Shown: positions 18,501-37,909 of the stretch, piece after piece
Layout of the letters: each line of letters opens with the position of its first letter
Position numbering within the stretch: position 1 is the stretch's first letter
Source of the DNA: Bacilli bacterium
Lineage (GTDB): Bacteria; Bacillota_I; Bacilli_A; RFN20; CAG-826
NCBI GenBank assembly: GCA_028690575.1
Contig: JAQVAY010000004.1
Span: 1-40,439 of the forward strand
Reading direction: 5' to 3'
Length of the DNA stretch: 40,439 nucleotides
Translations under genes and position numbers: made by a program
Notes under the pieces: generated by a model
The model's input: only the letters and a program-made list of their open reading frames with translations
Databases searched by the model: none
Told to the model about the DNA's origin: nothing

Positions 18501-18561
18501 AAACATTGCTCCCAAGAGTTTGAATAGCGTCGATTTGATTTTGTGACCATTTAAATTCCAC
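15529..18561 (-). CDS. addA: ATP-dependent helicase/nuclease subunit A
   Basis: UvrD-like motifs SAGAGSGKTAVLTERI, VDEYQDTSDVQE, VGDVKQSIYRFRNA, LYVAITRVREQLIFL; C-terminal PD-(D/E)XK nuclease GIIDCLIIKNDEIIIVDFKLKN. Confidence 0.96.
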   Translation of the reverse strand: MEFKWSQNQIDAIQTLGSNVLVSAGAGSGKTAVLTERIFQIVKSGHPLSKFLVLTFTKPAASEMKIRLRDKLLSDPATSHLTSELEAAHIETFDAFSLYLVKKYSSFLHIPSDINVMDSSLLNIQKKKIIDQVFHEYYLSNDPLFIQMINTFCLKSDQVLRDYVDQIIKVVNLKINKDSFFHFLSEECYDEKLISSYIADYYQQTLAAFRELRNMSESLSDAEDSNTICDVLDQLIDAKNYDNLFDLLDVLSLPKQKVNYPEEDKPLRGYIAETFSILKKRHFGHQEDILKSFIVYKPFAKILVDMVKTIEERFLDFKKETHSYDFPDIARMAIEIISIPEVLKEIKNGFDYIMVDEYQDTSDVQERVIQSLARDNLYMVGDVKQSIYRFRNANCQIFQDKFNAYKDNRGGREIDLNVSFRSRFQIVNFINKSFSKLMSAKNNIIDYENGHPFLYEPVIYGASDKENLNHQPTIYRYPSGKNDDNVNQEIIIIADDILDKIKNQFSVYDKETKVDRPARYGDFAIIVDRGSDFEKYHRHFSSLGIPLNVIKDERIDNSVLGFVTKNLITLFSCVAKRVMDDSFNHAYVAISRSFLLSVPDQEIYDIVKNKLYYHTPLYQKIEAVVELTKNRSLYEMLRSLYEEFDIYHKLLTLDNFNNNVEMVDSFLSFAKSMDDLGFSIDELSSYFSELTEYGLEVTVPRKGSQNNAVTLITIHRSKGLEYPIVYLPGLFKNFYRKEINTSFLASPLYGIFFPLPNDFGFDSFPHHLIKEKYIHEDFEEKLRLFYVAITRVREQLIFLYPQGEKAFFVGDLKRSTSFKDFLEYLELPNQIGVDYVLKNASINKKTQQKAIKMVKIKEISLPSKLVEKKSASKKTNVLADTSALEFGSQLHHLLEVVDYENKDISFIKNKQLARCVFNVLETSIFRNVKNEDLRHEYEFYDDINEVHGIIDCLIIKNDEIIIVDFKLKNLDDEQYIKQLHVYRDYIKSISDKPIRLYLVSALTGEEREIE

Positions 18562-20881
18562 TATCTTCTATCTCCTCTTGTTTTATTTCTTTTGGAAAAA
18601 CTTTTTGTTCGTATTTGACATAGCAAATATCCTTAAACGGGCAACGTTTGCAAGGCCCGTCTTGATCCAAAAATTGAGGGCGAACGGAAAAAATGTTTTG
18701 CCGAATATTCCTATTTCCCTCAATAAATAATTGAAGAGCCATATCACTTAGCGACTTAAAATAGTCCTTCGTTTGGACGTGACTGTATTTATAGAATTGA
18801 TTATTTTTTGTTAGTTTTAGGCTTTTTATGAATGCAGATTCTTCTCCCGGAATGCCAAAAGTCCCATCAAAACTGCGGATGATATCGATATTATCGATAA
18901 CATAGCCATCCAATTTAAGATAATTGGGAATCAGGGCATCTTCTTTCTCTTCTCTACCAATCGAATCAGGAATGATGTGATGAATGAAGAGCCCAGATAG
19001 GGAATAGTCTTTAAATTGAGGAGATTGAGAAGTCAAAAAAGCGTAAGTCGGTAGCTGAAATGAACTTCCGTATTCAACTAAACTGGGTGTGAACGTTTCC
19101 TTCCCTGTTTTGTAGTCCAGTAAAAACATGTGTTGATTATTTGTTATGATAATTTTATCGATAATACCTTCCACAGTCGTGTTTTTATCAATAGAGATGG
19201 AAAGAAACTTTTCAGTAAATACTTGGGCTTTTTCCATTTTTGAATTGTGTAATTGAATGGCCTCTACCGCCACTTTAATATCAGCTTTTAACTGAATCAA
19301 AAGAACTTGTTCTTCTTCGGTAAACTGATAATCGTTATTATTCAAAGCTGCTTGGTAGGATTTTTCAAAATCAAAATGATCTTGATACATATCTTGAAAT
19401 ATATGATGAGCAACAGTACCCAAAGCAGTGCTAAAGTTACCGGAAAACGGATCAAGCTTGAGGCCAAAGGAAGCATAGTACTGAAATGGACAGGCATAGT
19501 ATGTTTTCATTTTTGAATAGGAATGTTTAAGAAGCATTGAATCATCAAAAACCCGGGCTCCGGTAAAATTGTTATCATAAGAATCGTAAGGAATAGAAAC
19601 AAGTTCTTTTAAAGCATAAAAGTCTTCATTTTTTTCTTGGTAAAATTTGTTTGAATCACAAAGGGTTGCTAAAATCATTTCAGCGTAAGTTTTGCTGTAG
19701 TAAGTTTCTGGTAAATGAGCTTCAACTATTTCCATCCCCCAAATTTTGGCAAAAGGAGATGGATAATAATTATTAGTGGCATATCTTTCAGAATACGAAA
19801 AGTAATAATAATTCTCTTGAGCAAAGAAAGAGGTCAAGACCTGAGATGATATCTTTCCTTTTTCAAGAGACGTATTAAGGGAGATAATGCCTTTTTCTTG
19901 GTCTGTTAGATAGTCACTATCCTGGTAGGATGTGGGAAATAATCCCTCGCGAAAACCAAGCACAAAAACATGAGAGTTTTTTACCATAATTGGTTCACTA
20001 ATAAAGCAAATTGAAGGATGGTAAATATCATCAGGAATTTGGTGATTTTTCAAAGAAGAAAGGAGATATTGATATTGAGCTTCAAAGCTAAAACGTTCAT
20101 CAAAAACTTCGTTAATAACGTCATTCAAAAGGATTTTATTTTCTTCAGAAATCGACATTTGAGAAATACTCTCACTGGCTTTCTTTAAATTTTTGTTTTG
20201 ATGATAATTTTTTAAAAAATCGCAAACAAAGTTTTGACTATATAAGTTCCTAAATAAGGGAATATTAATGTGAAAATGAAAATCGGTTTGAAATCGATTG
20301 AGATAATAGAGGTAATTTGTATCAGAGCAATAAATATATATATCTTTTGAGTTGACTCCCGAATCTAATAAAGAAGAAATTTTATTTAAGCAAGAAAGAA
20401 CCTCTTCATAAATCGTGGGGAACTGCTTTAGTGTTTGGTTATTTCTAATCAATTCGCTGGAGTGAATGTTGATTTGACAGCCAAGAGAGATCAAAGGATT
20501 AATAAGTTCTTTATCTAAAACTGAATAGCCATAAACATCTACACTATTGCCTTTAAAAAGCATGGACAAATAGGGATCTTTTTTTATTAGTCCAAGACCA
20601 TCCATTTTTTCTTTAATGCGAAAAAGGTTTTTCAACTTATCAATGGAATAATTTTTATCAATAAAAGGAAGTAATTGAACGATTTTTTTTGCCACATCAT
20701 CAGAAACATTTTCCTCTATCATGATTTCTTTAATGGCTTGAGTATTAATCTCGCTGAAAAATGAAGCTAAAAAATCTCTTTTATCAATCGTTTTGATATC
20801 AGCAAAAGAATCGGTTTGGCGAAAGAAATTCAATAAATTTTTATGCATTGCATAGGGAGCAATAATATAACGTCTTGTCAT
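18551..20881 (-). CDS. addB: AddB/RexB-like PD-(D/E)XK nuclease subunit
   Basis: GIIDKIIITNNQHMFLLDYKTGK nuclease motif; Fe-S type Cys set (YYACPFQYY plus CKRCPFKDIC); directly upstream of addA with 11 bp overlap. Confidence 0.85.
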   Translation of the reverse strand: MTRRYIIAPYAMHKNLLNFFRQTDSFADIKTIDKRDFLASFFSEINTQAIKEIMIEENVSDDVAKKIVQLLPFIDKNYSIDKLKNLFRIKEKMDGLGLIKKDPYLSMLFKGNSVDVYGYSVLDKELINPLISLGCQINIHSSELIRNNQTLKQFPTIYEEVLSCLNKISSLLDSGVNSKDIYIYCSDTNYLYYLNRFQTDFHFHINIPLFRNLYSQNFVCDFLKNYHQNKNLKKASESISQMSISEENKILLNDVINEVFDERFSFEAQYQYLLSSLKNHQIPDDIYHPSICFISEPIMVKNSHVFVLGFREGLFPTSYQDSDYLTDQEKGIISLNTSLEKGKISSQVLTSFFAQENYYYFSYSERYATNNYYPSPFAKIWGMEIVEAHLPETYYSKTYAEMILATLCDSNKFYQEKNEDFYALKELVSIPYDSYDNNFTGARVFDDSMLLKHSYSKMKTYYACPFQYYASFGLKLDPFSGNFSTALGTVAHHIFQDMYQDHFDFEKSYQAALNNNDYQFTEEEQVLLIQLKADIKVAVEAIQLHNSKMEKAQVFTEKFLSISIDKNTTVEGIIDKIIITNNQHMFLLDYKTGKETFTPSLVEYGSSFQLPTYAFLTSQSPQFKDYSLSGLFIHHIIPDSIGREEKEDALIPNYLKLDGYVIDNIDIIRSFDGTFGIPGEESAFIKSLKLTKNNQFYKYSHVQTKDYFKSLSDMALQLFIEGNRNIRQNIFSVRPQFLDQDGPCKRCPFKDICYVKYEQKVFPKEIKQEEIEDSGI

Positions 20882-20986: not shown

Positions 20987-22117
20987 TTAGTTAATAGGAT
21001 TCATTACTGGGTAGGAACTTAAATCTGTTGGAAGAACGACAGAGACGTCATCGCCATATTTCATTCTTAAGTCAGATTTAAGAGCAACGTTAAATTCAAC
21101 GCCCTCGCCACTTTCGCCAATAGTCATTTCACTTAAAGAAGTGTCAATAGAAACATCGATATCAACCAAGAAGTCTGTTAATAGAGCATCTTCGTTGAGT
21201 AAGATTGTAACTTTTAAAGCACCGACATCTAAGATTTTGCCAACTTCAGCGACAATAGCTTCAACTTCTTGTCCAGATGCTTCTTCATTAATCGATGAGA
21301 TAATGATTTTTGCAAGAGAGAGGATATCTTCTTCGCTTAAATCAATTCCAATACCAAAACTTCCATCATCATAGTCAAGAACTGTAATGTAGTCATCAAG
21401 GATTGCAAAAACTGGTTCATTAATTACTTCACCTAGCATGGTCATAAGGTCTTCGTGGGTCGGCAATTCAGCACCAACAAGTCCCAACAAGGAATCGAAA
21501 ATTGGAAGAGCTTCTTCAGGAATGAGACCAGGAACTTGGAATGTTTCAGGAATAGAGTCCATAATATTTCCTTCGACAGGTTCGCTGAAAATTAGAGCTG
21601 AGATTGTACTAATTATTTCTGGTATAAATTCACGTAATTCAGGATCAGAGGCATTAACATAAAGGTTGCCTTCGCCGACATAAGCTGCGAAATCAATATC
21701 GCTAAAGTTAAAATCAAACATGGCTTCGCTTTCTTCGCCGAATTCGGTGCCAACATAAACATCAAGTTTAAGATCGTCGACTTTGACTTCGGCAGCCAAA
21801 TCATCAAGAGAAGTGCTTGTTAAACCAGTGGCGGCAAATTTTGTTTTCACCGAAGCATCGGCATTAACAATTCCATAACCACTTTCTTCGCTTTCGGTAA
21901 TAGCTATTTTTGCATCAACATGAGCTCTCTTTAAATCGAAATTAGCTTCAAATGAGTCTAAATCAAGCATAGAGTCATAAGCTCGGCCGATTGCTTCAGC
22001 AGTACTAGCGGCAGTTGCGGGATGTCCGCCTGCTGGCAAAGTTCCAGCACCCATTCCACCACAAGCGGAAAGAAGCAGTGAACTTGTTGCAACAATTAAT
22101 ATTTTTTTAAGTTTCAT
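20987..22117 (-). CDS. acidic lipoprotein of unknown function
   Basis: Signal peptide with lipobox LLSACGG; remainder is strongly acidic and rich in alternating hydrophobic residues. Confidence 0.75.
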   Translation of the reverse strand: MKLKKILIVATSSLLLSACGGMGAGTLPAGGHPATAASTAEAIGRAYDSMLDLDSFEANFDLKRAHVDAKIAITESEESGYGIVNADASVKTKFAATGLTSTSLDDLAAEVKVDDLKLDVYVGTEFGEESEAMFDFNFSDIDFAAYVGEGNLYVNASDPELREFIPEIISTISALIFSEPVEGNIMDSIPETFQVPGLIPEEALPIFDSLLGLVGAELPTHEDLMTMLGEVINEPVFAILDDYITVLDYDDGSFGIGIDLSEEDILSLAKIIISSINEEASGQEVEAIVAEVGKILDVGALKVTILLNEDALLTDFLVDIDVSIDTSLSEMTIGESGEGVEFNVALKSDLRMKYGDDVSVVLPTDLSSYPVMNPIN

Positions 22118-22259: not shown

Positions 22260-23738
22260 TTAAATCTTGAATTTTCGAACCGCTGAAATAGCTTTCTTCC
22301 AACCTTTATACCGGCGTTCAATTTTTGCCTTCGGCATTTTAGGTTTGTATATAATTTGGTATGAATGAATCTTTTTTATTTCATCGAGACTTTTAAAGAA
22401 CCCGCTATTTAGTCCAGCCAAATAAGCTACTCCAAGAGCAGTAGTTTCTAAACATTGTGGGAGCATAATTTCTAGTTGAAGAATATCGCTTTGAAATTGC
22501 ATCAAATAACTATTCGTAGTAGCTCCACCATCAACACGTAAGTTTTTTATACTACATTTTGATTCTTTATCCATGGCTGTAAATACATCTTTGCATTGGT
22601 AGGCAATGCCTTCAAGAGTTGCCTTAATGATTTGATTCTTGTCAGATGCTCTTGTAATTCCTAAAATTGCTCCACGAGCGTCATCATCCCAATAGGGTGT
22701 TCCTAGTCCGACAAAAGAAGGCACAAAATATAAACCTTCAGTGTCTGAAGCAAGATTAGCGGCTTTTTCACTTTCGCTGGATTTACTTATCAAACCCATT
22801 TCATCACGCAGCCATTGAACTGCTGCACCACCGACAAAAACCGATCCTTCGAGAGCGTATGTAACGTTGTTTCCGATTTGCCAAGCCACAGTTGTCAATA
22901 AACCACAATGAGAAAATACTGGCTTATCTCCCGTGTTAAGAAGCATAAAGCAGCCTGTTCCATAGGTATTTTTGCTTTCTCCTTTTTCAAAGCAAGTCTG
23001 TCCAAATAAGGCAGCCTGTTGATCTCCAGCTACACCCTGAATGGTAATGTTCGGATGAAAAAAGTTTGCGGTTCCATATAAGAAACAGGAAGGCTTTACC
23101 GTTGGCAACATTTTCATCGGGACATGGAATAAATCACATAATTCTTTATCCCACATTAATGTATTGATATTGAACAATAAAGTTCGTGATGCGTTTGAAA
23201 TATCAGTGGCGTGGACCTTTCCTTTGGTCATCTTATAAATGAGCCAAGAATCAATCGTACCAAACAATAATTCGCCATTTTCCGCTTTCTTTTGACTTCC
23301 GGGAACATGATCCAAAATGAATCTAATTTTGCTAGCGGAGAAATATGGATTGATTAAAAGGCCAGTTTTTTGATGAATTGATTCTTTCTTATCACTCAAT
23401 CGGTCACAAATTTCGGAAGATTGTCTGGATTGCCATACAATCGCATGATAAATAGGCATTCCAGTTTCTTTATTCCATACGACAGTAGTCTCGCGTTGGT
23501 TTGATAAACCAATTGAATCGATTTCGTTCATTGTGATATTGGCTTTGATTAAGACTTCATTGATTACATCAATTACAGACACCCAGATAGAAAGGGCATC
23601 AGCTTCAACCCAACCAGAATGGGGATAAAGGCACTGAATCTCTCTTTGAGCGATGAATTTCGCTAATCCTTGATTATCAAAAAGAATCGCTCGTGTTGAG
23701 GTGGTCCCTTGATCAATGGAAAGAATATACTTTTTCAT
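22260..23738 (-). CDS. glpK: glycerol kinase
   Basis: SIDQGTTSTRAILFD, HSGWVEADALSIW, GVAGDQQAALFGQ, RVDGGATTNSYLMQFQSDIL; very characteristic. Confidence 0.97.
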   Translation of the reverse strand: MKKYILSIDQGTTSTRAILFDNQGLAKFIAQREIQCLYPHSGWVEADALSIWVSVIDVINEVLIKANITMNEIDSIGLSNQRETTVVWNKETGMPIYHAIVWQSRQSSEICDRLSDKKESIHQKTGLLINPYFSASKIRFILDHVPGSQKKAENGELLFGTIDSWLIYKMTKGKVHATDISNASRTLLFNINTLMWDKELCDLFHVPMKMLPTVKPSCFLYGTANFFHPNITIQGVAGDQQAALFGQTCFEKGESKNTYGTGCFMLLNTGDKPVFSHCGLLTTVAWQIGNNVTYALEGSVFVGGAAVQWLRDEMGLISKSSESEKAANLASDTEGLYFVPSFVGLGTPYWDDDARGAILGITRASDKNQIIKATLEGIAYQCKDVFTAMDKESKCSIKNLRVDGGATTNSYLMQFQSDILQLEIMLPQCLETTALGVAYLAGLNSGFFKSLDEIKKIHSYQIIYKPKMPKAKIERRYKGWKKAISAVRKFKI

Positions 23739-24995
23739 TTAGAAACGGGTTTTAAAAAGCCTTTCGATATCTTTTATTTCTTTAACAATGCCTTTAGATA
23801 GACATTCACCACGACCATTGCTAATAAGAATATTATCTTCAATACGAACCCCGATACCTTTATCGACTAAATATAGACCTGGTTCAACAGTGATAATATT
23901 GCCATTTTCTAATGGTTTTTCCCGATCAGAGCAATCGTGAGTATCGAGTCCCAGATGATGAGAAACATTATGGTAGTAATATTTAATAACGTCTTCATCT
24001 TCCCCAAGGATACCTATTTTCACGCACTCTTTTTTTAAAAAGTTTCGGGCAAATTCTTGCAATTGAGCCAGAGTCATTTCTGCGCGAACATATTCGATTA
24101 CAGCTTTATTGCAATTGAGGACGGCTTGATATACTTCTTTTGCTAATCCAGTAAATATTCCATTCACTGGGAAAGTGCGGGAAATATCAGCGGAATACCC
24201 ATGTGATTTATAGCCAATATCAAAGAGAATTAAGTCATTCTCTTTTAAAGAGTCATTTTGGGACGGGTAATGGAGGCAAGTAGCGTTCTTACCGGAAGCC
24301 ACTATACTTGGGAATGACAATTCCCTAAAGCCGTGTTTGCGGCCAAAAAATTCAAAAGTATCAGCGAGCTCTTTTTCAACAACTCCTGGCTTAATCACTG
24401 AAATTAGCTGACCGATTCCGTTATTGGTGCCGTTAATCGCGTTGAGAACTTCACCAATTTCTTCGGATGATTTTATCATTCGTAATTCAGTGACCATTGG
24501 GTAAACATTAATGGTTTTGATAAAAGGATACTCACTTAAAATAAATTGTTCGAATTCTTGCGTTGAATAACTTTCTTTTATTTTTAATTCTGGCGATAAA
24601 TCGAGATAGAGGGTGTCGATTTTTCCATATTGGTTATTTTTATTAGTCAAAGCGAGAGAAAGCATGCTTTCAAATGAGTTATTGAGATAGACATTTTGGA
24701 TTCTTGAAAGATTCCTCGCTTCGGTGACAGTTAATCTTTTTCCTGTCCATTTTTCTTTTAATTCACTGAAATCATCAATGAAAAGATATATTTTCTTTTC
24801 GCTGATGCCTTTGACAAACAATAGAACGGAATTTTCTTGTTCAATGTTACTTAAATAATAGAAGTGACGGTTTGAAACAAAAGGATAAGTTTCATCTTCG
24901 CTTCTTAGCTTTGGAGTACCCGCGAAAAACAAAGCCGCGGAGTTTTCTTTCATCTTCGCAAAGAGGCGTTCACGACGATTTTCAATATCACTCAT
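23739..24995 (-). CDS. Xaa-Pro aminopeptidase (M24 family)
   Basis: N-terminal AMP_N-like domain; LFDIGYKSHGYSADISRTFPVNG, HHLGLDTHD, ITVEPGLYL and IRIED metal-ligand motifs. Confidence 0.94.
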   Translation of the reverse strand: MSDIENRRERLFAKMKENSAALFFAGTPKLRSEDETYPFVSNRHFYYLSNIEQENSVLLFVKGISEKKIYLFIDDFSELKEKWTGKRLTVTEARNLSRIQNVYLNNSFESMLSLALTNKNNQYGKIDTLYLDLSPELKIKESYSTQEFEQFILSEYPFIKTINVYPMVTELRMIKSSEEIGEVLNAINGTNNGIGQLISVIKPGVVEKELADTFEFFGRKHGFRELSFPSIVASGKNATCLHYPSQNDSLKENDLILFDIGYKSHGYSADISRTFPVNGIFTGLAKEVYQAVLNCNKAVIEYVRAEMTLAQLQEFARNFLKKECVKIGILGEDEDVIKYYYHNVSHHLGLDTHDCSDREKPLENGNIITVEPGLYLVDKGIGVRIEDNILISNGRGECLSKGIVKEIKDIERLFKTRF

Positions 24996-24997
24996 AA

Positions 24998-25822
24998 TTA
25001 GTTCTCCTTTTCAATGACTCTTTGAGTCACATTCTCCATTTCTGGGAAAACAATATCTTCCACTTGTCCTTTATCAATTAATGCCGTGTGTTCAGGATTA
25101 AGAGGGAGGCGACCTAGTATGTCAAAATGCAGTTCTTTTGCAAATTTTTCGAGATGCGAAGATCCAAATATTTCAATTTTTTTGCCACAGTCAGGGCAAG
25201 AAAGATAAGACATATTTTCGACGACACCTAAGACATTGATATTCATCATCTCCGCCATCTTAATTGCTTTAGTAACGATTAGTGATACTAAATCTTGAGG
25301 GGAAGTGACGATAATCAAATCGTCAATTGGCAAAGATTGAAAGATTGTCAAGGCAACATCTCCGGTTCCTGGAGGCATATCAATAAGTAAAAAGTCCAAT
25401 TCTTCCCAAAGAACATCTTCATAAAATTGCTTTACTAAATTAGCAAGAATCGGCCCTCTCCAAATAATCGGGTCAGAGTCATTTTCTAATAAGCAATTAG
25501 CGGAAATTACCTTAATTCCTGATTTAGTGAAAAGCGGATAAATGAGGCTTCCTTCACCAGTGGCTTTTTCAGAGACATTAAAAGCTTTAGGGATACTTGG
25601 TCCAGTCACATCAGCATCAAGAATACCTACTTTGTAACCTCTCTTTTTTAAACTTACGGCTAATAGAGAGGTGACGAAAGATTTTCCCACTCCTCCTTTA
25701 CCAGATAGAACTCCAATGATTCTTTTAATATGTGATGCTTCATTTAATTTAGCTTTAAAACTTTTGCTATCGCAAGATTCACTAGTCGCGCAGTGTTCAC
25801 AGTCATGATTGCATTCTGGCAT
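24998..25822 (-). CDS. Mrp/NBP35 family iron-sulfur cluster carrier ATPase
   Basis: GVLSGKGGVGKSFVTSLLAVSL deviant Walker A; IDMPPGTGDVALT; SCPDCGKKIEIFG; Cys-rich N-terminus. Confidence 0.95.
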   Translation of the reverse strand: MPECNHDCEHCATSESCDSKSFKAKLNEASHIKRIIGVLSGKGGVGKSFVTSLLAVSLKKRGYKVGILDADVTGPSIPKAFNVSEKATGEGSLIYPLFTKSGIKVISANCLLENDSDPIIWRGPILANLVKQFYEDVLWEELDFLLIDMPPGTGDVALTIFQSLPIDDLIIVTSPQDLVSLIVTKAIKMAEMMNINVLGVVENMSYLSCPDCGKKIEIFGSSHLEKFAKELHFDILGRLPLNPEHTALIDKGQVEDIVFPEMENVTQRVIEKEN

Positions 25823-25835
25823 AATAATTTTCCTC

Positions 25836-26213
25836 CTATAGTTGTACTAATTGTGCTTTGTTGAGCACACTGACGCCGGCTTGAACGTAAGTCCGGAGTA
25901 ATCGAGAAGCACCAAGCTTAATGCCGCCAAAGTAACGGGCGACGAAAATTACTACTTGATCCATTTCTCGCTTGTGAAGAAGTTCAAGTAAAGGTCGACC
26001 GGCTGTTCCTTTTGGCTCTTGATCGTCACAAGATTTGCTTTTGTCTTTAACGCGATAGGCATAAACAATGTGCTTTGCTTTCGTGTGTTCTTTTTTTATT
26101 TCCGCCAATAATTTTTTAAAATTATTAGCATCGTTGAAGGGAAGAATAATCGCGACAAATTTCGATTTATTAACTTCCAAAGTCTCTTCGCACCGAACTT
26201 GAACTGTTTGCAT
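25836..26213 (-). CDS. YigZ/IMPACT (UPF0029) family protein, single-domain
   Basis: KHIVYAYRV, DDQEPKGTAGRPLLELL, VVIFVARYFGGIKLGASRLLRTY; about 125 aa, so only the N-terminal family domain. Confidence 0.88.
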   Translation of the reverse strand: MQTVQVRCEETLEVNKSKFVAIILPFNDANNFKKLLAEIKKEHTKAKHIVYAYRVKDKSKSCDDQEPKGTAGRPLLELLHKREMDQVVIFVARYFGGIKLGASRLLRTYVQAGVSVLNKAQLVQL

Positions 26214-26215: not shown

Positions 26216-29200
26216 TTAACTTAATGCAAAATGGTCTACTAACGATGTCCCATAAGTGCTGAACAAGAATCCAGGAACATAGACATTAGCAGTATAGTCA
26301 CTCCATGTCGGAGGAACAGTTTGAGTAATAGTTCCAAGGTTATTGTGAGCACGGGCGAGATATAATATTTTTGAGGCTTGGCTGTTATCCATCAACGTAA
26401 AGGTATTAATTAATTCACTTCTGGTTGGAAAGATTGTTTCGGACATAATCTTATTAATAATTAAGATAGTATCAAACGCACCGTTTAAGCCATCACATTC
26501 AGCAAAACTGACGTTGTTATAAACATCCTCATCGATATCCAAATATGAACTTGCTCCAAAATGGACTTCTTCGTAATAATAGGTGAATCCATCAATTACA
26601 TCATATTGAATTTCCATAAATTGATCTAAGAGACTCGATATAATTTCGCTGGCGAAATAAGAGCGGATGTTGGTGCTATCTCCAAAAGCATCAGTAGCAA
26701 TGCGCATAGAAGAAGTTAGAGCACTGCGAGCCTCTGTAACAGCATTAAAGTCATTAATATTGAGATTATTACTATCGATTTCATCGGAATTGGATGCCAA
26801 AGCAAACAATCCTTTTGATTCGGCTAAATCGTTGTAATTTGGAATGGTAAATATTCTTGAAAGGGTCGCAATCTTTTCTTCTGGAGTGGCTCCGGTAATG
26901 TATTGTCCAAGGTTCGCCCCATCGCTTGGGTTACTCGATCCTGCAGTTAAAATGTTGTAGAGTAGCAAACCGCGAGCGGAGGCAGGATAGGATGACAAAT
27001 CCCACATCGTATTAAATGAACCAGCTGAATCGGTATTTAAGATTCGACTATGGCTAATAAAGCGAATAATGCCATCAAAGTTATCCGTGTTTTCAGATAG
27101 GGCAACGAGATTATTAAGACCATAATAACCATCAAAGTTATTTTCCCCATCAACCCTTACCATGTTATTCAAAGCAGCATAGATGTTATTAATCTCACAG
27201 AACTCAAGATTGGACATACTGCGATCTCCACCATATTGGTACTGGCCAATATTGAAGTGCGAATAAGAAACAGAATTATAAGTAGCCAGAGTGTTCAACC
27301 CAATTGCATCTAAGCCTTGATTAACAAACACTGGCAAAACATCACTGAGGAAGTCAACTTTATTAATGGCCATCATGATAGTTTTTGTTTCATCTGGATT
27401 GATATTGTTCATTTGCAAGTCAGCGACATCCATAGTTCCGCTTTCGCCAAGAATCGATTGACTGATGGAAATAAAATCGACAAGAGCGTGAATCTCATCG
27501 TTATTTGTGACGCGCAGCCAATTCTCATGGTAACCAGTGGTATTTATGGTTGTGACATTTACTTTATAGGCTTCATCAAGAGTGGTAACAGCTTTGATTT
27601 TAGCCATCATAGTGGCATCACCATTCACAGGATAAGCATAGTTGGTCAATCCCGATCGAGAAACGAACATATTGACGACTTGTTCGAAAACTGTCATGTG
27701 AGTCGAGGAGGCAAGATATTCATTAGAGGAATGCAAAATGTTGCTTGCATAAGCATCTACTAGAATGTCGTAAATATAACCATTCTCCATCAAAGCTTTA
27801 ATTACCGCCAAATCTTCCATGTCATTAGTGCCTACAATACCAGTGAAAAGCTGATAATCATTAACTAGTGTAATGATGTTATCGATTTCATCGACATCGT
27901 ATTTCACATTGTAATTTGTTATTCCGGATATCTCATAGTGATAGAAGGAGGAAGCGTCTGACAAATCGACACCTTGGAAAGTGGCGAAATCACGATTCAT
28001 CATTGTATAAATAAGATTGGGGACGGCATCATAAAGTGAGTTGCTATCATTGAGGGCAACGAGGACTTCGCGAGCATCACTAGTGTTGATCGACATCAAA
28101 TCCATCGAGTTAAAGTTAGAAGCGTTGAAATCCAAAGCCGCAACCATGAAATCAGCAATATTATCGATTTCTAAAGTTTGAGCGGGGAGTGAAAGAGCAA
28201 GGGCTCCTTGACCATCAAAAGCGAACAAACTTTCGGCTAAATAAACAGCTTTTTGATCAGCGTTTGAATAATTACCTAAGGCTATGTTGGCTTGATCTTT
28301 CGGAGAATTAACATCAAAGAGAGATGACGAAATCGAGTCATGGGAAAATAGTTCAACGCATATTTCTTGGAAGATGGTCATTCCTGTGGAAGAGGCATTA
28401 TTCAAGACAACATTGTGGTTGACATCAATATATAAGGAAAGTATTGGACCACCAGTGTGGAATATTTTGCTTTCATTTAAGTCATGAAGGAAATTTTGCA
28501 AGTTAAGAATTGAAGTTGAAGAGGTACTTATTGTATCTAAATCAGGGAAGGCTGAGGGTTCACCATTTTGATTCTTTGAAACCTCTCTAAGAATATCGCA
28601 CACTAGTGATAACTCTTGTTCATCAAATTTTGCTTCCCAATTATAGGACTGTGTACCGACAAGATTGGCCTCATCAAAATAGTGATAGAAGACATTTGCA
28701 TCAGCAAAATCAACATGGGTCAAACTACTCACCAAATCGTATTGTGAGGCATTTTCCAAAGATAGAGAGATGATGTTTGAAACGCTATCATACATGGTAT
28801 TGGTTTCATTTAATGCGGTGAGAATTTGATTGACCGCTAGGGCATTACCAATATTGGTGATGTCAAAGTTTTCAAAACTGAATGTAATAGAGCCATCTGC
28901 TTTTCGAAGTCCCTGATACTTTTGATTAGTGCCTTCGATTGGTCCACCAACAATGGCATCAATAACAGTGAAGATAGCGTTAACTTCGTTAATTTGTTGA
29001 TTATAACTGAAATTTTTAGCTCCTGCAAAATCGAAATAGTTATCGAGTATGTAATCAGACTTGGCTTTAATGACATCTTTTTCAGTCACCGGAGATAAAT
29101 CGGGATCTAAATAAGCAGCGTAATCATCATAGTAGAAAATGTCTTTGGGATTATTAGCGTTATAAACAATAGTCCCCATATTCTCAGCGGTTAAGAATGC

Positions 29201-32200
29201 ACCCATGGCATTTTGAAAAACAGTCGGATAATACCCATCCAAATCATTGCTCAAATCAGGATCTAAGATTGAGCCTTTTCGATGGAAAACGATCGATTGT
29301 TGAACGCCGACTATTGAGCTGCGAATTCGCAAAGCAACTTCTTCATCAATCATATCGGTAACAAATTGGTTATTGCTATCTAAAACACCTTTATCAATCA
29401 TGTAACGATAAGTCGAATATATTTCAGTCAGATGTTCGATCTCAACTTGCCTTAAAACTTGAGAGGTATCGTAATCATAGATGTATCCGTCACAGGAAAT
29501 CAAATATGGAGTATTGGCTGGTTCTAAATCAAAGAATGCGGAAGATGTGCCACCCGTAAATGCTGATTTAGCTACCTCAAAATAATTATAGGTAGAAACT
29601 CGTAAACAAGTAGTATCGTTGAGAGAATTAATCAAACCTTCAAAAATTCTCACCGGCATACTTAATAAGTCATTTGTCGCAACAGCCTGAGAAACCCAAT
29701 AAACTATCTTGCAAATTTTGCCAATCTCATCAAGTTCAAGAATTGGGGAATAATCTTCGATAAATTGAGGGTTATCCCAATAATTTGTATAGCTTGTAAA
29801 AGGCAAAATGTAAATTGAAGTATTGAAAGAAGAAATGAATTCATCATTATACCAATCAGCCTTTTCATTAAGGGAAGCAAAATCATTTTTGACAATCGTG
29901 TATTGATCAGGGCCTTGTTCGCCCCAGGTAGGATCCCAAGTAGAAGGGTCTTGAAGTAAATTAAAGGTGTTAACCCCATCAGAAAAATTCGTCAAACTAC
30001 TCTCGGCCTTAGCATATAACCAATTGGAGAATAAATAATCACCACTTGTCTTATCGACAAAGATTGATGAATCAGCTAGAGAGTGAAGAAGATTATTTAA
30101 ACCAACAATATTAGTTACGGCATTTAAATCAAGATTAGATATGTCGATTGCTGCTTCGCCAATTGTGGTCAGCAAAACACCAAGTTTTTCACCTTCTTCT
30201 GCCCAATCAGTGACATTAGTGAAGGAAACGCCTTGATCTAAAATTCCAGTTTGTTGAAGTTGGGCATCGAGGAAAGTCCCCATCGTGCTTGAAAAAACGA
30301 TACTTCTTCCGACAGCTGCCAATACGGTAGACAAATGATAATCATTTTCTAATGAAGCGAGATTAGCAGTAATGTTACTGCCCGACAAATAATTTGGATC
30401 GGTCATTACTGTCATGATGTCTGAAACACCAAGCGCTCGGATGACATTTGCAATAGCGCCGTTTTCACCATCATAGATGGGTCGGCCAAATCTATCATGG
30501 AAGAAATTACCATTACTATCAGTGGAGTTTGACCACTTAATACTTGGATTGCTTAGCAAAGATTGATCAAAAGAAAGACCATCAACATTTAGAGAATCGC
30601 CAAAAATAAAACTCATCACATTGAGGAAGTTTTCATTAGCGGTATAAGTATCAGTTGGTAGAGGGATAGGATTAATAATGCGGCAACTATAAATAGCATC
30701 AAGAGCATAAGCGATGGATTCGTTGGCTTGACCTAATTGAGAGATTAAAGTTGGCACATCGCTTCCACTAGCAAGAATGTCAGTAAGAGTGCCGATGGAT
30801 TTCACCGAACTAATTACTTTAGCTAATTCGGCACCAAGGGTTCGTGAGGCTTCCGCTTTATCTATTCCATCAGTAACAATATCGATATCAATACCGCTAC
30901 TTGTAAAGGCATCCGCAACACTACCAGAAGTTAATAAAGAACGTATCGTGGGCAGTAAAATTGCATAGATAATTTTGGAATTATCCATTCTTTTTAAAAC
31001 TTTGCTAAGAACTTTAATTAGATTTTCATCAATATCGCTTAAAGAACCACCTTCAGGAATTAACTCTCCACTTAGTAGAGTATTTAAAGCACTCGTATCG
31101 TCTCCAAAAGCGGAGAAACAATAGAATAATGCATTAAATTCTTCTTTAAAGTTTTTCATCCATTTACCATCTGACAATTCTTCAATAACAGAAGTGACGG
31201 CAGCAGAAGCAGTTTCGTCAGTAATAACCGAATCCAATAGTTGAGGAAGAGATGAAAGAATAGTTTTACATAAAGAAATGTCCAATAAACAGTAACGGCG
31301 CCCAGGAATTCGGTTTCCGTTGGAATATACAATAGTTCGTCCATTACTATCGATATTAATTAATTCATTAGAGGAATTGGTTTCGCCAACGAGAATTCGT
31401 CGATAAGAGTCAATATTTTCTAAAATAACGTCCATTAGATTGACTTCTTCAGGTTCTTCTCCAGCTCGGAATGGGGACAAACCACTAACTTCTCCTTCAG
31501 GAGTGGCAGAGTTCATGCTCAGAATCGCGGTAACAATTCGGTCATCAACACAATACATTTGGTAAAGGCAATCATAGATAGTGCTGAGTTCAAACCCCCA
31601 ATCAATATCATTGAGAGCTTCAAAGGAAGCTGGGAAATAGGCACTCATTGTTTCTCCACCATTGGCGATGAAATATTGAATTAAAGCAGGAATACTGCGT
31701 GATAATAATTTTGATTTACTAATTGTCGACAGGGCATGATAAGTATATTGATAAGTTTTGTTGGTCAATAAACTGGTAACTATGCTCGCTGGGTCACTTG
31801 GAATAACAATGTTGCCTTCTTCATCCATGAATGAGTCGACCAATCCGCTATTAGCGATATCAATAGTGATGGTTTCAATTGCATCTAATTCTTTGTCCCA
31901 TTCGGCATCCGATAAATCGAGCATAGACATATCAACAACATCGGCCAACAGATCGGAATTAATCGAAAGTTGAACCGCGATAGGAATAATCGTCATGAGA
32001 AGATTAGAATTCTTTAATGATGCAAATAAAGCTTCGATATATTCTTGGTTGATCATTTCGGGAATACTATAAGTAATTTCCCCATTTGGCCCAATTAAGA
32101 CATTTTCAACAAGGACGCTCGCGATATTGGTTAGTTCAGAAACACTGCTGATAATACCGATTGAACCATTTTCCAAAGATGATGAAGTCAAATTATTAAG

Positions 32201-32965
32201 AATCGTTGCATCAAGAGTTAAGCCAGAAGAAGAATCAACTGTCCAGTTAAAGAACGTCTTTGCAAAAAGAGAATTGTCATATGAATCCATGAATCCATTA
32301 AGATAGGATACAATCTGATTATCATCGTTTCTTCTGGAATAATTTTGGTTAATTATATTAACCATTGATGTTAAAGGCGAAAGTAAAAGAAAACCAACTA
32401 CTACATAAGAAACAGAATTCATTATTGCTCCCGCCCAACGAACTTTGATTTTGTTTCTAGCGAGTTTGGGTATCAAACGTTTGAACAATGCGTGCCACAA
32501 AATAGTACTTAAAAGCCAACCAACGGTGACAATAAGAATCATGATGACAACGAAAGACACCAATTTGACAGTGGAATAAGCAAGAGCTTCAGCAAATTCG
32601 GTCGCGGCGGCATAACTGCCTGAGACATTATATAAATAATAAAAACCTCGTAAGCACGAAACTAATGTTTCATGAAAAGAAGTAATTGGGGCAAAATAAA
32701 CCATCCCAGTTTTAGCATTTGTCAGGACAATTGTTTCATAGGGTATAAGAGGATCGAGATTAAGATTGCCAATAATTTCCGCTATAGCAGACAAAGACAA
32801 TAACCCAGCAGAAACGAGAATCAACATAAAAATCATGCGGTAAGTAGAAGACCAAATACCACGTTTGTAACCGATGAAGGCAGCAATAACAAAACCAACA
32901 ATAATTAAAACAAAAAGAACAACGAGGCCGATATTGACAATTTGAGCAAATAAACCAGCTGACAT
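26216..32965 (-). CDS. giant membrane-anchored repeat protein with CvpA-like N-terminus
   Basis: Single uninterrupted ORF. The track starts it at 33022, but the ATG at 32965 (MSAGLFAQ) has GGAGATGAGG upstream, giving about 2,249 aa. Four N-terminal hydrophobic helices, then about 2,000 aa rich in Asp/Asn/Ser/Thr. Confidence 0.85.
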   Translation of the reverse strand: MSAGLFAQIVNIGLVVLFVLIIVGFVIAAFIGYKRGIWSSTYRMIFMLILVSAGLLSLSAIAEIIGNLNLDPLIPYETIVLTNAKTGMVYFAPITSFHETLVSCLRGFYYLYNVSGSYAAATEFAEALAYSTVKLVSFVVIMILIVTVGWLLSTILWHALFKRLIPKLARNKIKVRWAGAIMNSVSYVVVGFLLLSPLTSMVNIINQNYSRRNDDNQIVSYLNGFMDSYDNSLFAKTFFNWTVDSSSGLTLDATILNNLTSSSLENGSIGIISSVSELTNIASVLVENVLIGPNGEITYSIPEMINQEYIEALFASLKNSNLLMTIIPIAVQLSINSDLLADVVDMSMLDLSDAEWDKELDAIETITIDIANSGLVDSFMDEEGNIVIPSDPASIVTSLLTNKTYQYTYHALSTISKSKLLSRSIPALIQYFIANGGETMSAYFPASFEALNDIDWGFELSTIYDCLYQMYCVDDRIVTAILSMNSATPEGEVSGLSPFRAGEEPEEVNLMDVILENIDSYRRILVGETNSSNELINIDSNGRTIVYSNGNRIPGRRYCLLDISLCKTILSSLPQLLDSVITDETASAAVTSVIEELSDGKWMKNFKEEFNALFYCFSAFGDDTSALNTLLSGELIPEGGSLSDIDENLIKVLSKVLKRMDNSKIIYAILLPTIRSLLTSGSVADAFTSSGIDIDIVTDGIDKAEASRTLGAELAKVISSVKSIGTLTDILASGSDVPTLISQLGQANESIAYALDAIYSCRIINPIPLPTDTYTANENFLNVMSFIFGDSLNVDGLSFDQSLLSNPSIKWSNSTDSNGNFFHDRFGRPIYDGENGAIANVIRALGVSDIMTVMTDPNYLSGSNITANLASLENDYHLSTVLAAVGRSIVFSSTMGTFLDAQLQQTGILDQGVSFTNVTDWAEEGEKLGVLLTTIGEAAIDISNLDLNAVTNIVGLNNLLHSLADSSIFVDKTSGDYLFSNWLYAKAESSLTNFSDGVNTFNLLQDPSTWDPTWGEQGPDQYTIVKNDFASLNEKADWYNDEFISSFNTSIYILPFTSYTNYWDNPQFIEDYSPILELDEIGKICKIVYWVSQAVATNDLLSMPVRIFEGLINSLNDTTCLRVSTYNYFEVAKSAFTGGTSSAFFDLEPANTPYLISCDGYIYDYDTSQVLRQVEIEHLTEIYSTYRYMIDKGVLDSNNQFVTDMIDEEVALRIRSSIVGVQQSIVFHRKGSILDPDLSNDLDGYYPTVFQNAMGAFLTAENMGTIVYNANNPKDIFYYDDYAAYLDPDLSPVTEKDVIKAKSDYILDNYFDFAGAKNFSYNQQINEVNAIFTVIDAIVGGPIEGTNQKYQGLRKADGSITFSFENFDITNIGNALAVNQILTALNETNTMYDSVSNIISLSLENASQYDLVSSLTHVDFADANVFYHYFDEANLVGTQSYNWEAKFDEQELSLVCDILREVSKNQNGEPSAFPDLDTISTSSTSILNLQNFLHDLNESKIFHTGGPILSLYIDVNHNVVLNNASSTGMTIFQEICVELFSHDSISSSLFDVNSPKDQANIALGNYSNADQKAVYLAESLFAFDGQGALALSLPAQTLEIDNIADFMVAALDFNASNFNSMDLMSINTSDAREVLVALNDSNSLYDAVPNLIYTMMNRDFATFQGVDLSDASSFYHYEISGITNYNVKYDVDEIDNIITLVNDYQLFTGIVGTNDMEDLAVIKALMENGYIYDILVDAYASNILHSSNEYLASSTHMTVFEQVVNMFVSRSGLTNYAYPVNGDATMMAKIKAVTTLDEAYKVNVTTINTTGYHENWLRVTNNDEIHALVDFISISQSILGESGTMDVADLQMNNINPDETKTIMMAINKVDFLSDVLPVFVNQGLDAIGLNTLATYNSVSYSHFNIGQYQYGGDRSMSNLEFCEINNIYAALNNMVRVDGENNFDGYYGLNNLVALSENTDNFDGIIRFISHSRILNTDSAGSFNTMWDLSSYPASARGLLLYNILTAGSSNPSDGANLGQYITGATPEEKIATLSRIFTIPNYNDLAESKGLFALASNSDEIDSNNLNINDFNAVTEARSALTSSMRIATDAFGDSTNIRSYFASEIISSLLDQFMEIQYDVIDGFTYYYEEVHFGASSYLDIDEDVYNNVSFAECDGLNGAFDTILIINKIMSETIFPTRSELINTFTLMDNSQASKILYLARAHNNLGTITQTVPPTWSDYTANVYVPGFLFSTYGTSLVDHFALS
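27162..27394 (-). repeat. intragenic protein repeat copy 3 (core, more divergent)
   Basis: DETKTIMMAINKVDFLSDVLPVFVN...SVSYSHFN...EINNIYAALNNM; in frame, 229 codons after copy 2. Confidence 0.6.
27848..28081 (-). repeat. intragenic protein repeat copy 2 (core)
   Basis: SDAREVLVALNDSNSLYDAVPNLIY...VDLSDASSFYHYE...EIDNIITLVNDY; in frame, 253 codons after copy 1. Confidence 0.7.
28575..28840 (-). repeat. intragenic protein repeat copy 1 (core)
   Basis: LAVNQILTALNETNTMYDSVSNIIS...VDFADANVFYHYF...ELSLVCDILREV. Confidence 0.7.
32330..32965 (-). other. CvpA-like 4-TM membrane domain of the giant protein
   Basis: TM1 followed by GYKRGIWSSTYR; TM3 followed by the basic segment KRLIPKLARNKIKVRWAG; then TM4. 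Positive-inside rule gives N-out, C-out. Similarity to CvpA is by pattern only. Confidence 0.45.
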
Positions 32966-33059
32966 TATTACCTCATCTCCTATCAGTCCATAACTAGTAG
33001 TTATTATTACTGTTAAAGTCATTTTTAGTGTATAGTTTTTTTATTAGGAAATAAAGCAA

Positions 33060-33881
33060 ATGTTAATAAGAAACACTAATTGTCCTAAATGCGGTCATAT
33101 CTATGATTCAATCGAAAGACACTGCCCAAAGTGCAGTGAAGCAAATCCAAACCCAATGTCTCATAAAAAGTGCCGCGGTTTAGTTTGGCTTCCGAAGTGG
33201 CAGGAAATTACTTTTTTTCTACTTGGATGGTTTGGTTTAAATATAATCGCCACACTCGTCCAATTGGCTTTTTCGTATTTAAACACTGATGGAAACGAAG
33301 TTTTATTCATGTCAATTACTCAGTTTATCACATACGGAATTTTGTTCTTAGGAATGGTTATTTTGGTCGTTAATAATCATCGAAAAATATTCGTTTCTTT
33401 TAAAAAAATAGAACCATATGTGATTGGAATAGGAATCGGAGCGATTATCATCTTACTAAGTGGTTTATATAGTAGAATCGTTTCTTCATTTTACACTTTT
33501 AATGTAAACGAAAATGAGTCTCTAATTAGAGAAATAACGATTTCTTACCCGGTGTTCGCTTTTTTAATTTTTGTATTTGTCGGCCCAATATGTGAAGAGT
33601 TAACGTATCGTCTTGGTTTGTTCACTCTTTCTGCTCGTTTAGGAAAATGGGTGGCTTATCTTGTTACTGTCTCTTTCTTTGCACTTATCCACTTTGATTT
33701 TTTTGCAGGAAGTGCTGAAGGTTATATTGTCGAACTTCTTAATTTACCTTCTTATATAATTGCCGGCGCTCTTTTGTGTTTTGCCTACGATTATTTCGGT
33801 CTAGCTGCTTCAGTAACTGCTCATGTTGTAAATAATATGATTGCCATTACTTCAATTTTATTTCTTAACGGAATTAGCTAA
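33060..33881 (+). CDS. CPBP family intramembrane metalloprotease with N-terminal zinc ribbon
   Basis: NCPKCGHIYDSIERHCPKC zinc ribbon; CEELTYRLGLF (EExxxR), ALIHFDFF and HVVNN motifs of CPBP/Abi proteases. Confidence 0.87.
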   Translation: MLIRNTNCPKCGHIYDSIERHCPKCSEANPNPMSHKKCRGLVWLPKWQEITFFLLGWFGLNIIATLVQLAFSYLNTDGNEVLFMSITQFITYGILFLGMVILVVNNHRKIFVSFKKIEPYVIGIGIGAIIILLSGLYSRIVSSFYTFNVNENESLIREITISYPVFAFLIFVFVGPICEELTYRLGLFTLSARLGKWVAYLVTVSFFALIHFDFFAGSAEGYIVELLNLPSYIIAGALLCFAYDYFGLAASVTAHVVNNMIAITSILFLNGIS

Positions 33882-33893
33882 AGGTTAAAAATA

Positions 33894-34781
33894 ATGAAAA
33901 ACGAACAAAGGTGGCTTATTTTCTCGAACTTCAGTTTAAAGATAATGGCTTTATTATTCATGACTCTCGATCACATCGGTTTTCGACTTTCTTATTTTTT
34001 CCTTGATGATGGTTCCCCAATTGTCTTAATTTTAAGAGGCTTGGGAAGATTAGCAATTCCTCTATTTGCATTTTTGATTTACGAGGGAGTAACCCATACA
34101 AAAAGTTTTAAAAAATATGCTTCAAGGCTCGGGATTATGGCTCTTCTTATTAGTGGAGCTTTTGCATTTTTGATTTATGTTCCCAATCCATTCCTGTCTG
34201 GCGGGTTAATTGATAGTGGAAACATTTTCCTTGACTTATTACTTGGGGCTGTTGGAGTTTTTCTGCTAAAGAATAAGAGTATAAAAATTAAACTACTTTC
34301 TTTACTTCCTGTTATTTATTCAATTGTTTCTTTTGCAGTCACAACATATCAAATTAACAATGGCGTAATCGTTGACTGGTTCCCCTTCTATTTAAGAACA
34401 CAATATGGTTGGTTAGCCGTATTTATGATTATGGGATTCTACCTCGCTAAAGTCTTAAAAGATTTGTACCTTCGCTATACTGCAAAAAATATGGGTGTGG
34501 ATGTCGAAGTTTTGATTTTATCTCCTTATGATTTTTGGGCCACTAATTTATTTAATATGATGACAGTAGTATTTTTTGCTATCGCTGCCTATGTATTAAC
34601 ATGGTTCTTTGTAACTCCTTTCTTACCTTATCAATGGATATCTCTTTTTTCTGGAGCACTTCTTTTGTGTTACAACGGCAAGCGTGGCTATAATAAGAAA
34701 TGGTTTGAGTATGGGGCGTATCTTTATTACCCCCTACATCTAGCCATATTGGCAGTAATATTCTACTTACTGACCCTATAG
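33894..34781 (+). CDS. TraX-like multi-TM protein
   Basis: LKIMALLFMTLDHIGF N-terminal motif, LRGLGRLAIPLFAFLIYEG; multi-TM. Confidence 0.8.
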   Translation: MKNEQRWLIFSNFSLKIMALLFMTLDHIGFRLSYFFLDDGSPIVLILRGLGRLAIPLFAFLIYEGVTHTKSFKKYASRLGIMALLISGAFAFLIYVPNPFLSGGLIDSGNIFLDLLLGAVGVFLLKNKSIKIKLLSLLPVIYSIVSFAVTTYQINNGVIVDWFPFYLRTQYGWLAVFMIMGFYLAKVLKDLYLRYTAKNMGVDVEVLILSPYDFWATNLFNMMTVVFFAIAAYVLTWFFVTPFLPYQWISLFSGALLLCYNGKRGYNKKWFEYGAYLYYPLHLAILAVIFYLLTL

Positions 34782-34790
34782 GAGAAAATT

Positions 34791-35099
34791 ATGATTAAAC
34801 ACGTTGAAACAGCCCAAGAATTTGATTCTTTGTACAACAAAGGAAGAGTATTAGTTGATTTCTTTGCCACCTGGTGCGGACCATGCAAAATGCTCTCGCC
34901 GGTCATTGAATCTATTGATGCCAGTGGTAAGGCAAAAGACACATTAATTTTGAAAGTTGATGTTGATCTACTTCCCAGAACTGCTTCCCAATTTGGAGTT
35001 CAGTCAATTCCAACATTGATTCTTTTTGAAGATGGTAAAATTGCTAAACATTCCCTTGGCTATATGAACCAAAATCAACTTCTTGAATTCTTGAAATAA
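34791..35099 (+). CDS. trxA: thioredoxin
   Basis: FFATWCGPCKMLSPVIE active site and QSIPTLILFEDGK cis-Pro region. Confidence 0.96.
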   Translation: MIKHVETAQEFDSLYNKGRVLVDFFATWCGPCKMLSPVIESIDASGKAKDTLILKVDVDLLPRTASQFGVQSIPTLILFEDGKIAKHSLGYMNQNQLLEFLK

Positions 35100-36263: not shown

Positions 36264-36866
36264 ATGAATTTTGAAATGGTGTTGGCGACCAACAATCCCC
36301 ATAAATTGGAAGAAGTTCGCCAAATTCTAGCTCCACATGGCATTGTTGTTTATGGTTTAAAAGATCTGAACATCCATCCAGAAGATGTTGAAGAAAATGG
36401 AAAAACATATTTTGAAAATGCCCTTATTAAAGCTTTATCGGTAAAGAAATTAACAAACTTGCCAATTATCAGCGATGATTCAGGATTAGAAATTGAAGCA
36501 TTGGATAATCAACCAGGTTTGCATTCCGCTCGTTTTGCCCAAAAATACAACGGTCATCAAAACGCCATAACCGAGATATTAAAACAATTAGAAAACAAAG
36601 ATAGAAAAGCGACATTTGTCTGTAGTATTACTCTTTTAAATGTGGAAGATAAACCTCTTCGCTTTGAATCGCGCATACCGGGAAAAATTGCTTTAGAACC
36701 ACAGGGAGAAACTGGTTTTGGTTATGACCCAATTTTCGTTGAGGAGTCGAGCCAACTAACCTACGCTGAAATGACTCAAGAACTTAAAAATAAGCTTTCA
36801 CATCGTGGAAAAGCCCTCAATAAATTATTAACCTATTTAAAAATAAATCAGCTTATTAAGCGATGA
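36264..36866 (+). CDS. rdgB: RdgB/HAM1 family non-canonical purine NTP pyrophosphatase
   Basis: VLATNNPHKLEEVRQIL, ISDDSGLEIEALDNQPGLHSARFA, GFGYDPIF, SHRGKAL. ATG at 36264 preferred over the in-frame TTG at 36246; ends in TGA. Confidence 0.95.
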   Translation: MNFEMVLATNNPHKLEEVRQILAPHGIVVYGLKDLNIHPEDVEENGKTYFENALIKALSVKKLTNLPIISDDSGLEIEALDNQPGLHSARFAQKYNGHQNAITEILKQLENKDRKATFVCSITLLNVEDKPLRFESRIPGKIALEPQGETGFGYDPIFVEESSQLTYAEMTQELKNKLSHRGKALNKLLTYLKINQLIKR

Positions 36867-37909
36867 CGTTTTACCAAGCGATACAAACTGAAAAAATAAG
36901 CACCAAGAAAAGCAATTGCGCCTGCGAATAATACACTTGTTACTATTACGAGCATTTGATAAAAGGCCGTTGTTTGGAAAGCGAAAGTACACATCAAACT
37001 AATAATGCCTAAAACAAATAAAACAATCATTGTCGGAAGAGAGATTTTTTCAAGGCGATAAAGATATGAAAAATTAGGAAAAACCTGGTCCTTAATTACT
37101 TTATTTTTTCTTTCTGCTCTTTCATGAAGCAAAGCTTTGGGATGATATCGAGAAATTTTTACAGCGTTAATTTTATCGCTTCTACCAAGGAGAAGGTCTC
37201 CCGATTCAGAAGTCCCTACATAACCGTATGTATATCCATCTGCCGTTATCCATTTCTTATTCATTTCTTCGCTTTGAGAACTGATGGATTGCTCTAAAGA
37301 GGCAATCGCCAGTTTAATCTCTGGATGGTCATGACGAGTTTGGATGAAATGGTATTCCTTTAAAATAAGGGTTTTAAGTTTTTGAATGCTATTCAAGTTT
37401 TTAAAATACAATTTTATGCAGTCGATATCATAAAAATAATGATGGGTGATAAGTTTTTTTCGAAAGAGAACAAAGTATTCATCAAGCGCATAGCAAACGC
37501 GATGCAAAAAAGCGATATATAGCTTTTCATTCGATACTTTTCGGAAGATATCTTTCTCTTCATTAAGCAGCAAACCAACATTTTGAAAATGGGTTTTCCT
37601 TAAAGTTGACATATAAATAAGAGCGAGCAATCTTCCAAACAATGCATGAGTATTATTCGGGTCTAATTCTAATATCCGCGCATACATTAAATATGATTTA
37701 TAGTAACCGATCGCTGAAAAAAGGTTTCTATCGGCTTGGTTAATTTGTTTGGCGATAAATAACTCAAAAGCTTTGATGGGAATCGAAGGAATATATTGCG
37801 TCATACAGCGTGGACAAAAACACGCTTCCGCGTCAGAATTTACTTCAAAGATTCGTTCTTTCTCATCACTCACATGACAATGAGTGCAATACGCTTTCTT
37901 GAGAGCCAT
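36848..37909 (-). CDS. hypothetical protein: N-terminal zinc ribbon, TPR-like segment, two C-terminal TM helices
   Basis: CTHCH...CFCPRC; YARILELDPNNTHALFGRLLAL is TPR-like; two hydrophobic helices near the C-terminus. Confidence 0.6.
   Translation of the reverse strand: MALKKAYCTHCHVSDEKERIFEVNSDAEACFCPRCMTQYIPSIPIKAFELFIAKQINQADRNLFSAIGYYKSYLMYARILELDPNNTHALFGRLLALIYMSTLRKTHFQNVGLLLNEEKDIFRKVSNEKLYIAFLHRVCYALDEYFVLFRKKLITHHYFYDIDCIKLYFKNLNSIQKLKTLILKEYHFIQTRHDHPEIKLAIASLEQSISSQSEEMNKKWITADGYTYGYVGTSESGDLLLGRSDKINAVKISRYHPKALLHERAERKNKVIKDQVFPNFSYLYRLEKISLPTMIVLFVLGIISLMCTFAFQTTAFYQMLVIVTSVLFAGAIAFLGAYFFSLYRLVKRHRLIS

Follow-up and report, generated by a model that had tools for sequence, protein, structure and literature searches.

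A giant CvpA-headed membrane protein with a predicted extracytoplasmic helical-repeat tail in small-genome Bacilli

The window analysed here is the whole of a 40,439-nucleotide (nt) stretch of contig JAQVAY010000004.1 (assembly GCA_028690575.1) from a member of the Bacilli in the RFN20 lineage. The original prediction, made from the letters alone, described one gene, complement(26216..32965), encoding a CvpA-like membrane head and a tail of about 2,000 amino acids (aa) placed outside the cytoplasm, and proposed a surface stalk, adhesin or envelope scaffold. The uninterrupted open reading frame (ORF) of 2,249 aa was found with exactly these coordinates, and as far as sequence can tell each of the proposed roles is plausible. 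The reading we prefer, and hold at about an even chance, is that the giant is a sortase-independent, membrane-tethered extracytoplasmic alpha-solenoid acting as a scaffold or docking arm of the envelope. Computation has shown that the gene is real and under selection, as well as the homology of the head, the topology statistics, the repeats and the helical fold of the N-terminal half. The architecture is well supported; the role in the cell, be it that of a scaffold, an adhesin or a CvpA-type envelope-stress module, is inferred.

The longest version of the ORF (26216-33022, minus strand) encodes 2,268 aa, and this form is used for the numbering of membrane helices, repeats and tail. The ATG at 32965 is the likely start, because the Shine-Dalgarno-like GGAGATGAGG lies about 6 nt upstream and the closest relative (L026:7962) begins at the equivalent downstream Met (MSAELF). 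The gene is real and under selection; neither chance nor a mis-assembly nor a fusion of genes can account for it. Across eight pairs of close relatives the ratio of nonsynonymous to synonymous substitution rates (dN/dS) of the tail is 0.10-0.23. Between the window and a genus-mate, identity is 56-69% in the tail, 62% in the head and 61-65% in the neighbouring membrane proteins. Since the tail diverges at about the rate of those neighbours, it is constrained and not hypervariable.

The four N-terminal transmembrane (TM) helices of the original prediction were recovered by hydropathy and as AlphaFold helices, with none convincing past about residue 227. Its claim of a CvpA-like head stood in a modified form. 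A Pfam scan of the whole window protein gave no match at E≤10, so CvpA (PF02674) was not matched either; an NCBIfam scan of the whole protein gave nothing useful, and no model of either collection recognises it. CvpA (PF02674) was likewise not found in the window's own genome. The relationship is instead visible between profiles: the heads of giants from the same order match the canonical CvpA profile of the class (hhalign, probability 94%, P 8.5e-8; reversed control, probability 1%). For the heads of wider-class giants, P is 3e-13 against CvpA and 6e-29 against the heads of the order giants. Bridging relatives complete the link. For example, a 1,078-aa protein (L105:3200-6436) is above the Pfam CvpA cut-off, matches the order head profile at 5e-29 and has six tail repeats. 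A short paralogue in a relative matches PF02674 at E 1.8e-4, below the gathering cut-off. G51 and G55 of the head are nearly invariant, and the four-TM topology with a glycine/basic motif after TM1 is as in CvpA. The assignment of the head to a putative remote CvpA-family module holds up on these comparisons, as remote homology and not as proof of CvpA function.

Short CvpA-like proteins (279-302 aa) also occur in relatives at a locus apart from the giant, directly after a membrane-anchored gene that appears RmuC-like by eye (L031:7194-8102:- and 8112-9236:-; L032:7290-8129:- and 8186-9358:-).

The tail was originally described as having no further clear TM helix, and this was correct. It is not featureless: the tail is an array of divergent helical repeats of about 70-90 aa, with the iterated-profile consensus DeLxxlLxsLNdSkLLsdaLPnlLdxaLeN...dWgxEIdnLlDilddL. 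The repeat profile gave 414 matches (independent E-value <0.01), spread over all 50 of the 50 giants. Against four-fold shuffled tails it gave 0 matches, and against reversed tails 2. It was seeded on segments of the window protein and of the giant in G027, which favours those two; the other 48 giants were not seeds. Nine copies are significant in the window tail, and the spacing of those near the C-terminus (starting at 1397, 1652 and 1880) suggests a possible super-repeat of about 230-255 aa, with one clear and one eroded unit. The giant in L037 contains 25 tandem copies spaced 77-93 aa apart (about 85). In wider-class tails the repeat is weaker, with 98 matches spread over 23 of 24 proteins; the controls gave 0 and 2 for the two sets together.

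Modelling of residues 1-1140 with AlphaFold (13 sequences) resulted in an almost purely helical tail, with a mean predicted local distance difference test score (pLDDT) of 75.6 and a predicted template modelling score (pTM) of 0.55. The best Foldseek matches in the PDB are HEAT solenoids of the karyopherin/importin type, and they are weak (E 2.8e-3, probability 0.69). No Pfam repeat family, HEAT/ARM included, and no catalytic, adhesin or carbohydrate-binding domain of Pfam matches the tail at E≤10, and a PDB sequence search with the first 520 residues gave no match. On the model, a putative alpha-solenoid is well supported to about mid-tail, and we infer its continuity to the C-terminus.

The tail was originally placed outside by the positive-inside rule, and charge statistics over 50 homologues bear this out. 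Because the TM1-2 and TM3-4 loops are rich in lysine and arginine (means of 15.9 and 27.4 K+R per 100 residues), both termini would lie outside; the N-terminus (3.6), the TM2-3 loop (4.1) and the stretch after TM4 (6.6) are poor in these residues. The tails have 16.0 D+E vs 6.6 K+R per 100 residues and 0.5% Cys. The predicted N-out/C-out topology is well supported by these figures, and MarP is a precedent for a four-TM head with an extracytoplasmic C-terminal part. The C-terminus (...LVDHFALS) is neither an LPXTG motif nor a hydrophobic tail, in agreement with the original reading. The giant does not qualify as a sortase-anchored surface protein, as it has no C-terminal sorting signal and the genome has no sortase.

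Homologues were searched for with a profile of the N-terminal ~520 residues; the window protein alone as query found no relative. Within the order, 143 of 247 genomes have a homologue, mostly encoded in one ORF of more than 1,000 aa and usually in single copy; within the class, 108 of 298 do. In a phylum-wide draw of 249 genomes, they were found only in genomes of the same class. Apart from a few short paralogues (250-300 aa), most of these matches are long frames, reaching just above 6,000 aa in G356. Relatives with the same architecture have single ORFs of 1,586-3,907 aa, and a head with a giant tail of ~950 to >6,000 aa is found in several families of the class. Homologues are mostly one giant ORF and not split genes. 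The giants are widespread in small-genome, often wall-less Bacilli; none with a CvpA head was found in the sampled families f11 and f22 (0.7-1.2 Mb genomes, probably Mycoplasmatales). Among 57 records inspected in the order, about 52 keep the giant head-to-head with the CPBP-TraX-thioredoxin genes, and most keep the yigZ/mrp/pepP block, usually also glpK, downstream of it. This conserved synteny indicates that the giant is a vertically kept chromosomal gene.

A frameshift divides the giant of the nearest relative, a member of the same genus, between two overlapping ORFs (L026:7962-9419:+ and 9349-13726:+); it is either an error of assembly or a genuine break. The CvpA-headed giants of other families in the class form tandem pairs, ~950-1,200 aa beside ~2,700-4,100 aa or more (L105:3200-6436:+ with 7205-19501:+; L099:9065-12061:- with 1-8783:-; L111:1169-4696:- with 4846-12936:-; L096:3150-11975:+ with 12082-14949:+).

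Neither a penicillin-binding protein (PBP) transpeptidase nor a sortase was detected in the window's genome (1.02 Mb in 101 contigs, 95% complete), and in the class sample no f1 genome is among the PBP matches. Peptidoglycan-deficient families have been described in RFN20, and both RFN20 and ML615J-28 lack sortases (PMC10868615). The window's genome fits this description. In the class sample, carriers of a long frame are enriched among genomes without PBPs: 74 of 103 carriers lack them, compared with 91 of 195 genomes that have no long frame (Fisher p 3e-5, with no correction for phylogeny, which confounds it); PBPs are present in all sampled carriers of families f12 and f14 and in some carriers of f3 and f23. 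The loss of sortases was read as probably reduced surface protein expression (PMC10868615), and the present result qualifies that inference, since the window's genome is sortase-free yet encodes a giant, conserved, predicted surface protein.

In the scaffold reading, a four-helix CvpA-type module would hold the protein in the membrane and leave both of its ends outside. The divergent helical repeats, about 2,000 residues in all, would project from the membrane in a long and acidic superhelix of the HEAT/ARM kind, which most likely gives the envelope of these sortase-free bacteria a structural scaffold or a docking site. In the window's genome, where no penicillin-binding transpeptidases were detected, the giant would fill the place that wall-anchored proteins have elsewhere. 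A scaffold is favoured over a stress module or an adhesin because the giant is usually single-copy in the order, is inherited vertically, has a conserved sequence and shows no recognisable domain for binding or catalysis; a variable adhesin is also a poorer fit than a scaffold for an alpha-solenoid-like tail that is conserved, not hypervariable. The three readings do not exclude one another.

Several points weigh against the scaffold reading. The AlphaFold model of the C-terminal half has a mean pLDDT of 55, probably due to too few sequences. Its quality does not allow a fold search, and the solenoid is only presumed to continue there. The Foldseek matches have low template modelling scores and none reaches E≤0.001. 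Some well-assembled genomes of the window's own family have no detectable copy. Surface exposure of the tail is a prediction, drawn from charge statistics. Finally, 29 of the 103 long-frame carriers in the class sample encode PBPs. Replacement of the cell wall was therefore rejected as a general role, as these carriers include all sampled ones of f12 and f14 and some of f3 and f23. A broader proposal, which we regard as doubtful, is class-wide surface display independent of sortase: CvpA-type heads would tether extracytoplasmic alpha-solenoids of ~1,000 to >6,000 residues in many small-genome lineages of Bacilli, and in peptidoglycan-deficient ones such as the window's these could make up much of a protein coat taking over the envelope-organising functions of the wall and its anchored proteins.

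A CvpA-type envelope-stress or permeability module, in which the head is the working membrane unit and the tail a sensor or substrate-capture arm comparable to the protease arm of MarP, is rather unlikely but has a basis in the homology of the head to CvpA. E. coli cvpA is required for resistance to the bile salt deoxycholate (PMC6705877), and MarP combines four TM helices with a periplasmic C-terminal domain (PMC4992679); residues 139-221 of the window head match the NCBIfam MarP model faintly (E 0.046). However, Pfam finds no catalytic domain in the tail, CvpA is itself biochemically unexplained, and a homologous head does not determine what the tail does.

An adhesin, or a stalk whose solenoid extends away from the membrane and offers faces on which host glycans, substrate or other microbes could be bound, is unlikely. 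The great length, the acidic predicted extracytoplasmic tail and the sortase-free genome would suit such a stalk, and giant surface proteins (Gli349, Gli521) serve gliding in Mycoplasma mobile (PMC6935860). However, Pfam detects no adhesin or carbohydrate-binding domain, purifying selection on the tail is steady, with divergence no faster than that of neighbouring membrane proteins, and most genomes have one copy of the gene, among housekeeping genes whose arrangement is conserved.

Most known large HEAT/ARM solenoids, all top PDB matches included, are intracellular, and the tail could by analogy be a giant internal scaffold at the membrane, N-in/C-in. This is very improbable given the strong opposite positive-inside statistics of the 50 homologues, as the two short basic loops must be inside. 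An artefact (a chance ORF, a mis-assembly or fused separate genes) can practically be dismissed: the gene has two overlapping frames in G001 and G000 is a draft in 101 contigs, but uninterrupted orthologous frames in dozens of independent assemblies, near-complete ones included, the conserved synteny and a dN/dS far under 1 already refute it.

The features are collected in Table 1. The giant is the first gene of a packed run, giant-yigZ-mrp-pepP(M24)-glpK, with gaps of 2, 13, 2 and 0 nt. The original description of the gene was correct, but it missed this leading position and the helical repeats. A scan for promoters and terminators gave sites no commoner than by chance.

Table 1. Coordinates of the giant gene, its parts and its neighbours in the window (residues in the 2,268-aa numbering)
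Feature	Position	Strand	Basis or remark
Giant CvpA-headed repeat protein gene	26216..32965	-	2,249 aa; 2,268 aa from upstream in-frame ATG at 33022
Shine-Dalgarno-like GGAGATGAGG	32971..32980	-	~6 nt 5' of ATG at 32965; read directly from sequence
TM helix 1, residues 22-54, then conserved G-x-K/R-G loop (GYKRG)	32861..32959	-	hydropathy, AlphaFold
TM helix 2, residues 56-85	32768..32857	-	hydropathy, AlphaFold
TM helix 3, residues 137-183, then very basic loop KRLIPKLARNKIKVRW	32474..32614	-	hydropathy, AlphaFold
TM helix 4, residues 195-227, with conserved P-L/F-T/S motif	32342..32440	-	hydropathy, AlphaFold
Acidic, helix-rich predicted extracytoplasmic tail, residues 228-2268	26219..32341	-	hydropathy, AlphaFold, charge statistics
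Tail repeat, residues 327-394	31841..32044	-	E 2e-12
Tail repeat, residues 430-490	31553..31735	-	E 2e-12
Tail repeat, residues 582-639	31106..31279	-	E 6e-4
Tail repeat, residues 672-743	30794..31009	-	E 2e-6
Tail repeat, residues 897-954	30161..30334	-	E 2e-5
Tail repeat, residues 1127-1204	29411..29644	-	E 1e-3
Tail repeat, residues 1397-1482	28577..28834	-	E 6e-7
Tail repeat, residues 1652-1722	27857..28069	-	E 2e-10
Tail repeat, residues 1880-1954	27161..27385	-	E 3e-6
UPF0029/YigZ, NUBPL/Mrp-type ATPase, M24 aminopeptidase P, glycerol kinase-like FGGY kinase; downstream, tightly packed	22260..26213	-	neighbours conserved in order
CPBP (Rce1-like) membrane protease, TraX-like membrane protein, thioredoxin; divergent	33060..35099	+	neighbours conserved in order

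Three other proteins of the window have no Pfam match. After glpK, a predicted lipoprotein of 376 aa is encoded at 20987-22117 (-). A predicted 270-aa lipoprotein with a CNYCESAK (CxxC) motif, probably thioredoxin-like, is encoded at 3821-4633 (+). The product of 36848-37909 (-), 353 aa, has an N-terminal CxxC...CxxC zinc-ribbon-like segment and two C-terminal TM segments, and a 347-aa look-alike is found near the giant in L027 too.

CvpA-family proteins are widespread and mechanistically unexplained, and to our knowledge few extracytoplasmic bacterial solenoids of such size have been described. A CvpA head bearing thousands of solenoid residues offers a handle on the job of the head, be it tethering, translocation or complex assembly. 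No description of such a family was found in the literature, most subscription papers lying outside the search. The superfamily of the head is known; a giant solenoid architecture of this kind, spread across the class and with this range of sizes, appears to be undescribed.

Among known systems, Gli349 and Gli521 of Mycoplasma mobile are likewise very large surface proteins, of wall-less Mycoplasmatales (PMC6935860), and are likened to the giant by description, not by sequence. CvpA (Colicin_V, PF02674) has in common with the head the four TM helices, the G-x-x-(R/K)-G loop after TM1 and the basic TM3-TM4 loop, but canonical CvpA proteins of the same class have ~160-360 aa and no large tail. 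MarP (Rv3671c, NF033740) shares the plan of four N-terminal TM helices and an extracytoplasmic C-terminal part, in its case a periplasmic protease (PMC4992679). The MarP arm is a trypsin-like protease, whereas the giant has ~2,000 aa of helical repeats, in which Pfam and NCBIfam find no protease family. The HEAT/ARM alpha-solenoids (karyopherin beta-2, importin beta, XPO1) are all-helical repeat arrays, as modelled for the N-terminal half of the giant. These matched solenoids are intracellular and not membrane-anchored, whereas the tail of the giant is anchored and predicted to lie outside.
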